DNA of 48,903 nt from Candidatus Rokuibacteriota bacterium (lineage in GTDB: Bacteria; Methylomirabilota; Methylomirabilia; Rokubacteriales; CSP1-6): the NCBI GenBank assembly GCA_016866775.1, contig VGLJ01000035.1, positions 1 to 48,903 of the forward strand, read 5' to 3'. This document shows positions 12,839 to 15,829 of the stretch, piece after piece. The position numbers and the translations under genes are program-made. Numbering within the stretch: the first letter of the stretch is position 1; every line of letters begins with the position of its first letter. Below the pieces are notes generated by a model. The model had not been told where the DNA came from and searched no databases. It saw nothing but the letters and a program-made list of their open reading frames with translations.

Positions 12839-13582
12839 CTACCTCTGGGCGCTGCGCAGGCGTGCGGCCGCGCGGCGGCCGAAATCGGTGAAGCCGTACT
12901 CGGCTTCGAGGCGGCGGAGCAACGCGACGGCCTCGTCGGTCTTGCCTTCCCTGAAGCTGACCTCGGCGAGCATGAACATGGCTTCGGGGACGACCAGCGT
13001 GCGCGGGTAGTCCTTCAGGACCTTCTCCAGCCGCTGCCGCGCGCCGACGACGTTGCCTTGCTGGTTGTAATTGTACGCCGCGATCCACACTTCCTTCTGC
13101 GCGAGCCGCCCGCGGCAGATGTCGATCTTCGCGAGCGCGTCGGTCGCGTAGCGGCTCTCGGGGTAGTCCTTCACCAGCTTCTTGAACTGGTCGAGGGCTT
13201 TCGCGGCGAGCGTCTGGTCCTGCTCGATGGGCTTGATCTGGTCGTAGTAGCTCATCGACAGGCGGTACTGCACGAGGTCGGCGATCTGGTGGCGCGGGTA
13301 GAACGCCATGAACGTCCCGAACTCACCGATCGCCTTGTCGAACTCCGCCTCGCGGTAGTACGCCTCGCCCATGAGGAAGCGCGCGCGCGGCGCGAACGCC
13401 GAGTTCGGATGGCGCTCGACGATGCGACGGAAGTTGGTGCGCGCTTCCTCGTAGCGACGCTTCGAGAGCTCGTTCTCGCCGATCTGGTAGAGCTCGTCGG
13501 CGGGAAGGATCGGCGTGGGGCTCGGACGGAGCCACGCGCACCCGCCGAAGAGCAGCAAGAGGGCGATCAAGCCTACGCGCAT
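12839..13582 (-). CDS. bamD: Outer membrane protein assembly factor BamD
   Basis: A 247-residue lipoprotein. The signal peptide MRVGLIALLLLFGGC ends in a lipobox-like cysteine at residue 15, and TPR-type helical repeats follow (YQIGENELSKRRYEEARTNF, then FLMGEAYYREAEFDKAIGEF and later copies), as in the BAM complex subunit that recognises outer-membrane proteins. The length is typical. The ATG at 13582 has no Shine-Dalgarno but a TACAGT box 8 nt upstream. It is the first gene of the minus-strand operon reaching to 8495. Confidence 0.9.
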   Translation of the reverse strand: MRVGLIALLLLFGGCAWLRPSPTPILPADELYQIGENELSKRRYEEARTNFRRIVERHPNSAFAPRARFLMGEAYYREAEFDKAIGEFGTFMAFYPRHQIADLVQYRLSMSYYDQIKPIEQDQTLAAKALDQFKKLVKDYPESRYATDALAKIDICRGRLAQKEVWIAAYNYNQQGNVVGARQRLEKVLKDYPRTLVVPEAMFMLAEVSFREGKTDEAVALLRRLEAEYGFTDFGRRAAARLRSAQR

Positions 13583-13590
13583 TGGCGCGG

Positions 13591-13596
13591 ACTGTA
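13591..13596 (-). promoter_or_regulatory. -10-like box for a leaderless bamD transcript
   Basis: TACAGT on the minus strand lies 8 nt before the bamD ATG, and no ribosome binding site intervenes. This fits a transcript that starts at or next to the start codon, a pattern repeated at several other operon heads here. Confidence 0.4.
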
Positions 13597-13661
13597 CCAC
13601 AGCTTTCGGCCAAAAACCCTTTGACTTCAGGCGGGTCCGCCGGTATCAGGGGGGCATGCCA

Positions 13662-14900
13662 ATGCCCCGGATGGTGCGTGTCCGCCAGACGTTCGCCCGC
13701 CCGCGTGTGGCCGATATCCCCCGTCGCGTCGCCGAGACGCTGGCCGCCGGGAACCTGCCGATCACGCGGGGCGACACGGTCGCGGTGGGAGCGGGCAGCC
13801 GGGGCATCGCGAACATCGACGTGATCGTCGGCGCGACCGTGCGGTACCTGAAAGACCTCGGCGCGCGTCCGTTCGTGTTCCCCGCGATGGGCAGCCACGG
13901 CGGCGGCACCGCGGACGGCCAGCTCGACGTCCTCGCGCACTACGGAATCACCGAAGCCACGATGGGATGCCCGGTGCGCGCGACCATGGATGTCGTTCAG
14001 GTGGGCGAGGCGCTCGGCCTGCCGGTGTGGCTCGACAAGCTCGCCTCGGAGGCCGACTGGATCGGCGTCGTCAACCGCGTGAAGCCGCACACCGACTTCA
14101 AGGGCTCGATCGAGTCGGGCCTCTTCAAGATGATGACGATCGGCCTCGGCAAGTGGAAGGGCGCGCTGCAGTACCACCGCGCCAACGTGAACCACGGCTA
14201 CGAGACCGTGATCACCTCCGTCGGCCGCGAGATGCTCGCGAAGGCGCGCATCGGCTTCGGCGTCGGCATCGTGGAGAACGGCTACGACGAGACCGGGCAC
14301 ATCGAGGCGTTCAACGCCGCCGAGCTCGAGGCAGGTGAGCGCCGGCTTCTGAAGGACGCGCGCGAGTGGATGGCGCGCCTGCCGTTCAAGCAGATCGACA
14401 TCCTGATCGTCGAGGAGATCGGCAAGAACGTCTCCGGCTCGGGGATGGACACGAACGTGATCGGGCGCCCGACCAATCCGCACGAGCCGTTCCCCGCCGA
14501 TCCGAAGATCCTCTGGATCGTGGCCCTCGACATCACCGACGAGAGCTACGGCAACGCGACGGGGATCGGCAACGCCGACTTCGCCGCGCGCCGGCTCGTC
14601 GACAAGATCGACATGAAGCCGACGCTGATCAACTGCATCACCGCGTGCTCGCCCGGCATGGCCAAGATCCCCGCGACGTACGACACCGACCGCGAGGCGA
14701 TCGAGACCGCGCTCTCGTGCATCGGGCTCACGCAGCCCGAGAAGGCACGCGTCGTCCGCATCAAGAACACCCTCATGCTCGGCGAGCTCGAAGTCTCCGA
14801 GGCGTACTTGCCGGAGATCAGTAAGCGCGGCGACCTCACAACACTCGGCGAACCCACACCGTTTGGGTTCGACGCCGGCGGTGCCATCCACCATCTGTAG
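13662..14900 (+). CDS. LarA-like (DUF2088) nickel-pincer-cofactor isomerase family protein
   Basis: A 412-residue protein of the lactate racemase homologue family. The N-terminal domain has FPAMGSHGGGTADGQ and NRVKPHTDFKG, matching the segments that in LarA hold the histidines and the lysine tethering the nickel-pincer nucleotide; the C-terminal half ends with GFDAGGAIHHL. It would racemise or epimerise a 2-hydroxy acid, but the substrate is unknown and no larB, larC or larE cofactor genes are in the window. Three ATGs compete (13656, 13662, 13671). AGGGGGG at 13648-13654 is 7 nt before the second, which decided the start. It diverges from bamD. Confidence 0.85.
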   Translation: MPRMVRVRQTFARPRVADIPRRVAETLAAGNLPITRGDTVAVGAGSRGIANIDVIVGATVRYLKDLGARPFVFPAMGSHGGGTADGQLDVLAHYGITEATMGCPVRATMDVVQVGEALGLPVWLDKLASEADWIGVVNRVKPHTDFKGSIESGLFKMMTIGLGKWKGALQYHRANVNHGYETVITSVGREMLAKARIGFGVGIVENGYDETGHIEAFNAAELEAGERRLLKDAREWMARLPFKQIDILIVEEIGKNVSGSGMDTNVIGRPTNPHEPFPADPKILWIVALDITDESYGNATGIGNADFAARRLVDKIDMKPTLINCITACSPGMAKIPATYDTDREAIETALSCIGLTQPEKARVVRIKNTLMLGELEVSEAYLPEISKRGDLTTLGEPTPFGFDAGGAIHHL

Positions 14901-14977: not shown

Positions 14978-15033
14978 GGGCGCCTTCGAGGCGCCCGCGC
15001 CGCCCAACCGGAGTGAGAACTCCGCGTGGAGTT
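14978..15033. terminator. Two stem-loops between convergent genes
   Basis: GGGCGCCT (14978-14985), TCG loop, AGGCGCCC (14989-14996), then AACTCC (15018-15023), GCGT loop, GGAGTT (15028-15033), the latter overlapping the stop of the P460 gene. They lie in the 131-nt gap between the convergent LarA-like and P460 genes. No T-tract follows either stem. Confidence 0.5.
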
Positions 15034-15829
15034 ACTTGACCTCGATCTGACCCTTCATGCCGGGGTGGAGGCCGCAGAGGTAGTCGTAGGCGCCGGCGTT
15101 GGCGAAGGTCTGGGTGTGGGCCTGGCCCTTGGACAGGACGCCGGAGCGTGTGACGCCGCCGGTGGTGACGGTGACCTGGTGCGGGCTGTCGTCCTTGTTC
15201 GTCCAGCGAATGGGAGCGCCTTTCGCGACGGAGACCTTCGCGGGGCCGAACTTGACGCCTTCGATGTCGACGGCGGTGGCGGGTGGGACGGCGCCGAAGT
15301 TCGACAGCGGAGCCGACGCGACGAGCGTCGTGTGCGAGATCACGAAGTCCGTTTTCTCGTGCGGCTTGTGGCACTCGAAGCAGCCTTTGTAGTTCGCCTT
15401 CTCGTTGAGCTTGGTGTCGGCGGCGAAGACGGCGTACTCCCACTCGCCGTTGCGCCACTCGGCGGGGTACTCGGTGCCCCAGCCCGTACGCTTCTCCATG
15501 ACGGTGTAGGCGACGAGATCGCCCTTCACGAAGCGGCCGTCCGGACCCGTGATCGGGTTACCGGCGCCGTCGACCTACGCCTTGTACTGCACGAGCGTGA
15601 GCACGCTGCCGGACGGCAGCGGCTGGCCGGCCTTCATGGCCGCCACGGCGGCGGGCGTGCCCCAGAGCTCACGGAACTGCTTGATGTCGTGACGATCGAC
15701 CGTGGTGTAGAGGACGCCGTCCTTGTAGTTCGCCGGGTACTTGATCTTGTCCGGGCCCGCGGTGGACGGAACCGCGAACAGCACAGCGACCAGGGCCGTC
15801 GCAGCGAGCGAGGCGATGAATCGGCGCAT
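15032..15829 (-). pseudogene. Cytochrome P460-cupredoxin fusion, interrupted by one in-frame amber codon
   Basis: The frame runs MRRFIASLAATALVAV (signal peptide, GGAGGG ribosome binding site 4 nt upstream), then a P460 N-terminus (KYPANYKDGVLYTTVDRHD), then TAG at 15577-15575, and continues in the same frame through VDGAGNPITGPDGRFVKGDL, the P460 heme-c site (GCFECHKPH) and a plastocyanin-like domain. In the latter, the copper ligands appear as SPHQ and LCGLHPGM. A CAG to TAG change would explain the break. Intact, it would be a periplasmic hydroxylamine- or NO-oxidising heme enzyme carrying its own copper electron acceptor, which is unusual. Alternatives to pseudogene are a sequencing error or stop readthrough. 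Two separate ORFs (15575-15829 and 15032-15529) remain. Confidence 0.85.

Follow-up and report, generated by a model that had tools for sequence, protein, structure and literature searches.

The locus studied here raises three connected questions: whether a reading frame that joins a heme domain to a copper domain, and that is interrupted by a single TAG, derives from a real two-domain protein, what such a protein would do, and what has happened to the gene in this genome. The window, which is the whole stretch of 48,903 nucleotides that we analyzed, belongs to a Rokubacterial soil bacterium known from a fragmented assembly of 159 contigs. The initial annotation proposed a cytochrome P460 that oxidizes hydroxylamine and is fused to a plastocyanin-like electron acceptor.

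One reading frame and its intact relatives

The frame runs from 15829 to 15032 on the minus strand and comprises 265 codons and a terminal TAA, with the TAG as its one internal stop (Table 1). It starts at an ATG preceded by GGAGG and encodes the N-terminus MRRFIASLAATALVAVLFAVPSTAG..., followed by a PF16694 domain with the motif CFECH and then by a cupredoxin. Comparison of the read-through translation with Pfam gave matches to PF16694 (Cytochrome_P460; profile positions 1-124, E 5e-22) and to PF00127 (E 3e-11); the single frame with a P460-family domain, a CxxCH site and a cupredoxin with His, Cys, His and Met ligands, as the initial annotation had read it, is thus borne out by translation and Pfam down to the exact coordinates. 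Searching the genome itself with the PF16694 profile returned one match, which spans the stop (E 8.7e-22). These profile searches of the genome detected no second P460-superfamily gene, the fusion being the only one, and no other PF00127 cupredoxin gene.

Table 1. Features of the fusion gene in the window, and state or setting of its copies in related genomes
Feature	Positions	Strand	Basis or remarks
Cytochrome c'-beta–cupredoxin fusion gene, interrupted	15032..15829	-	Translation, Pfam, about 30 intact single-ORF relatives
N-terminal signal-peptide-like segment MRRFIASLAATALVAVLFAVPSTA (putative)	15758..15829	-	Read by eye
PF16694 domain, cytochrome c'-beta type	15338..15736	-	Profile match and structure match 7s5o_C
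CFECH heme-c attachment site, residues 150-154	15368..15382	-	Translation; KPH comes next
In-frame TAG replacing Gln85	15575..15577	-	CAG in most relatives
Amicyanin-like cupredoxin domain with His217, Cys252, His255, Met258	15035..15277	-	PF00127 match, 1sfd_A superposition, ligand alignment
Broken copy G028/L010			Loss of about residues 45-98 that also changes the frame; in addition, TAG in place of a Tyr
Broken copy G017/L011			TGA at a Trp, plus in-frame loss of the CxxCH segment
Broken copy G065/L096			Frameshift near residue 105, plus copper ligand His255 to Gln
Broken copy G012/L019			Reduced to the last 47 residues, which share 81% identity with the intact copy in genus mate G031
Copies between ATP synthase epsilon and response regulator genes			L032-L036, L038-L040, L067; broken copies L061, L062, L073

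Related genomes, together with a collection holding one genome per species, contain about 30 fusions, each encoded by one uninterrupted gene; they are 261-278 residues long and share about 53-63% identity with the window copy. The search of related genomes therefore returned single intact open reading frames and not two separate genes, which confirms a true fusion and rules out the chance joining of two neighboring genes. The hosts are Candidatus Rokuibacteriota, isolates of Bradyrhizobium (among them B. jicamae PAC68, B. lablabi, B. murdochi WSM 1741 and B. hereditatis), Xanthobacteraceae, Burkholderiales and other betaproteobacteria, and Pfam calls both domains in representatives of Bradyrhizobium, betaproteobacteria and Rokubacteria. 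In a heme-domain tree, all 32 fusions, window copy included, fall into one group (support 99/98) apart from the stand-alone relatives, with the Rokubacterial fusions nested in it as a group of their own (support 100/100). When an intact Bradyrhizobium fusion was used as query against plasmids, only the heme half was found among the matches listed, none of which covers 80% of the query.

Two observations concern individual loci. In the acidobacterial loci L082 (97-975) and L084 (2106-2951), a distant P460-family domain is followed by a cupredoxin-like region, for which Pfam makes no copper-domain call in L082. Both genes fall outside the main fusion group on the heme-domain tree, in a placement resting on long branches, and they may represent a second, independent origin of the fusion. 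Locus L058 is titled Bordetella parapertussis and comes from an environmental metagenome-assembled genome; its fusion gene groups with one from Burkholderiales, and the species label may be wrong.

In the open-licence literature we found no report of a fusion between a P460 or cytochrome c'-beta domain and a cupredoxin, although a report may have escaped detection, and a 2025 review of the superfamily never mentions copper, cupredoxin or fusion (PMC11928373). The earlier remark that this fusion has no standard description thus stands as far as we searched, and the protein is real and apparently undescribed as a fusion. P460 genes resembling those of Bradyrhizobium are mentioned in a genome paper on Nitrobacter, which does not analyze their domains (PMC12213059).

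A heme domain of the cytochrome c'-beta type

The closest solved structure, by sequence (E 2e-19) and by fold, is cytochrome c'-beta from N. europaea (NeCP-beta, 7s5o). The fusion was modelled with AlphaFold from 51 sequences (mean pLDDT 79), and the best structure match of its heme domain was 7s5o_C (VIA Z 15.9, rmsd 3.6 over 147 residues). For the comparison of active sites, residue numbering was verified against several named residues of each reference protein. Characterized P460 enzymes require both a lysine cross-link to the heme (Lys70 in NeP460, Lys78 in McP460) and a distal carboxylate (Glu96 / Asp102), and hydroxylamine oxidation is absent from the cross-link-free proteins characterized so far (PMC11928373). 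At the position of McP460 Lys78, which is Met79 in NeCP-beta, the window copy has Leu79, and the fusions as a whole have Leu (31/32) or Ile (1/32) but no Lys; K83, four residues away, aligns with McP460 Lys82, which is not the cross-linking lysine. The carboxylate position of P460, Ala109 in NeCP-beta, is occupied by Thr109 in the window copy and by Thr, Ala, Gly or Val in all 32 fusions, never by Asp or Glu. Arg46 aligns with the capping Arg46 of NeCP-beta.

The domain thus combines a P460-like fold and a CxxCH site with the absence of a cross-linking Lys, which is what distinguishes a cytochrome c'-beta, and lacks both residues that characterize catalytic P460. On the definitions given in the 2025 review, it is of the cytochrome c'-beta type and probably not a catalytic P460 (PMC11928373). 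The class that we assign, a cytochrome c'-beta–cupredoxin fusion, follows from the Leu and Thr found at the key P460 sites and from the best match to NeCP-beta.

One further residue sets the fusions apart. His157 (codon 15359-15361 on the minus strand), within the motif CxxCHKPH, is present in 32/32 fusions versus 0/17 stand-alone P460-family relatives, and it was missing as well from five further heme-domain relatives that we read directly. This histidine may help the heme domain to contact the copper domain or to exchange electrons with it.

An amicyanin-like copper domain

The C-terminal domain superposes on amicyanin 1sfd_A with a VIA Z of 14.9 and an rmsd of 1.5 over 90 residues. It has the ligand set of a type-1 copper site (H217, C252, H255 and M258, in a C-x2-H-x2-M loop), invariant in the 32 fusions. 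The amicyanin model TIGR02657 matches it with E 1e-12 and 47.8 bits, under the family cut-off of 110.2 bits, so that the domain does not qualify as an amicyanin equivalog. Of the plastocyanin-like copper domain first described, the cupredoxin with its four ligands was retained, while amicyanin proved to be the nearer relative than plastocyanin. In the model the linker has a pLDDT below 50 and the pTM is 0.60, and the relative placement of the two domains is not reliable.

Gene neighborhood

In most Rokubacteria, the fusion gene lies between the gene for the ATP synthase epsilon subunit and a response regulator gene (Table 1); in one of these loci, L035, the fusion and epsilon genes share four bases. 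It is located elsewhere in the window and in L037, L045 and L055, and in Bradyrhizobium and betaproteobacteria it adjoins unrelated genes. Among the loci compared, no neighbor is shared across phyla and no conserved neighborhood names a function. In the window, the adjoining gene at 13515-14900 (plus strand) has no Pfam match and matches NF052515 of NCBIfam, nickel pincer cofactor-dependent isomerase group 22 (E 4e-153).

The in-frame TAG and repeated loss of the gene

The TAG is the sole break in the frame, the rest of the translation being open as had been noted, and in the assembly sequence the same frame continues past it, which makes the lesion a base change and not a frame change. GC3 is 0.92 both upstream and downstream, and the codon bias of 0.60 bits per codon before the stop and 0.61 after it is like that of ordinary genes of the window. 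Across the 48.9 kb window, a codon-bias test identified this TAG as the only mid-gene stop (its three further signals mark ordinary gene ends that adjoin a neighbor in the same frame), and thereby ruled out a generally poor contig. At this position, 27 of the 31 other fusions have Gln and four betaproteobacterial ones have Arg or Lys; the codon is always CAG in the Rokubacterial genes for which codons were listed. The change from CAG to TAG that had been suggested remains the simplest account, a single C-to-T substitution, because most relatives have CAG. Compared with residues invariant in the other 31 fusions, the window copy differs at three sites, all outside the cofactor sites, which is no more than in some intact fusions, and all its heme and copper ligands are kept; the stop is therefore recent, or a variant, or an error.

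The stop at residue 85 precedes both the heme site and the copper domain. Judged from its sequence, the window copy in its present form should yield no heme site and no copper site in the periplasm, since nothing downstream of the stop carries an export signal. A lesion that prevents the product, together with intact orthologues elsewhere, is one mark of a pseudogene, and the assembly sequence shows both. Loss of this gene is also recurrent: in a family of 57 genomes there are 18 copies of the fusion, 13 whole and 5 broken (window included), each with a different lesion (Table 1), suggesting that the function is dispensable in Rokubacteria.

The most likely reading is that the gene in the window became a pseudogene recently, which makes it one of the family's five independent losses. 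A serious alternative, though a rather unlikely one, is that the population has an intact gene and that the TAG reflects either an error of assembly or a strain variant in the minority: the lesion is a single base in an otherwise flawless frame with every key residue kept, no other broken gene was found in the window by the codon-bias test, and the assembly is fragmented, but four other members of the family show unmistakable decay of the fusion gene, so that gene loss is a plausible fate. Read-through of the TAG by a suppressor tRNA or by recoding, which would yield the full protein, would fit the open frame and the normal codon bias on either side of the stop. It is nevertheless extremely improbable, as in the orthologues this residue is Gln and the terminal stop is itself mostly TAG. 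TAG terminates 16/40 predicted genes in the window and 97/255 in related loci, and since it ends about 40% of the genes in both it is an ordinary stop here; this stop usage rules out recoding. Recent pseudogenization remains the most likely reading for the window copy.

Possible function of the intact protein

In the intact relatives, the signal-like N-terminus suggests that the protein would be exported to the periplasm, where it would load one type-1 copper and one heme c, whose proximal ligand would be His154 and whose distal cap would be Arg46. H2O2 or a similar oxidant would convert the heme to a ferryl species, as in the Arg-capped and cross-link-free NeCP-beta; the tethered Cu(I) would feed electrons to the heme, and the periplasmic pool of electron carriers would recharge the copper. 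NeCP-beta does not oxidize hydroxylamine; H2O2 converts it to a ferryl species, and it acts as a guaiacol peroxidase, an activity that the K70A mutant of NeP460 acquires too (PMC11928373). By this analogy, we tentatively propose, with somewhat less than even confidence, that the intact protein is a copper-fed, peroxidase-like, self-contained periplasmic redox unit, of which the window holds a recent pseudogene. As for substrates, peroxide would come first and NO second, hydroxylamine oxidation being unlikely.

This peroxidase-like proposal has to be weighed against two others, and the analogy behind it is with a protein about 30% identical, whereas the fusions have Leu and not Met at position 79; in addition, a ferrous heme at the potentials usual for cytochromes c'-beta would reduce the copper instead of receiving electrons from it. 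The main rival is a role in NO handling, in which an open periplasmic heme would bind NO, as McCP-beta does. NO binding by cytochromes c'-beta is both very fast and tight, and the heme potential of McCP-beta is near -205 mV (PMC11928373). The cupredoxin would then oxidize the ferrous-NO adduct or the heme, giving nitrite or a recycled site. For such a heme, a type-1 copper is a downhill electron acceptor. We consider NO handling rather improbable all the same: the Arg-capped pocket resembles that of NeCP-beta, unlike those of the Phe-capped gas binders, and nirK, one source of NO, occurs in only 1/18 genomes with an intact or broken fusion versus 8/39 without it (weak matches counted), so that it does not travel with the fusion and a NirK-linked role in denitrification has no support. 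Far less probable is the function first proposed, a hydroxylamine-oxidizing cytochrome P460 whose copper domain serves as a built-in electron acceptor. It has on its side the Pfam name, the matches to McP460 in sequence and structure, and the alignment of Arg53 with McP460 Arg50, but neither the cross-link Lys nor the proton-acceptor carboxylate is present in any of the 32 fusions and the best match is a cytochrome c'-beta; on these two active-site residues we dismissed it.

In broader terms, it is quite possible, if short of probable, that the fusions are a conserved multi-phylum clade in which each cytochrome c'-beta has its own blue-copper electron donor or acceptor built in. His157 would lie in the electron path, and the periplasmic reaction, on peroxide or NO, would be one so far assigned to no known enzyme. 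The covalently attached partner found here points to a class of electron partner for cytochromes c'-beta, namely type-1 copper. Intact copies in cultured Bradyrhizobium species bring the role within reach of expression and gene-deletion studies.

Comparison with known systems

The nearest known protein, NeCP-beta (c'beta-Met, 7s5o), shares with the fusion the CxxCH site, a non-Lys residue at the cross-link site, a non-acidic residue at the carboxylate site and the Arg46 cap, but has Met at 79 where the fusion has Leu, Ala at 109 where it has Thr, and no cupredoxin domain. McP460 (6hiu/9hrk; Z 13.5-13.7) and NeP460 (2je3) belong to the same Pfam family and have the same fold, whereas the fusion has neither the cross-linking Lys nor the distal carboxylate and has a copper domain attached. 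With amicyanin (1aac and variants), the C-terminal 90 residues superpose at about 1.5 Å and all four copper ligands are shared, but the fusion's version is a fused domain that scores under the amicyanin family cut-off. Finally, the NiR/HAO fusion that is an encapsulin cargo in anammox bacteria also brings heme and cupredoxin domains together in one chain, in nitrogen metabolism, but it does so with multi-heme HAO and nitrite reductase domains, which are unrelated to the P460/c'-beta fold (PMC6934571).
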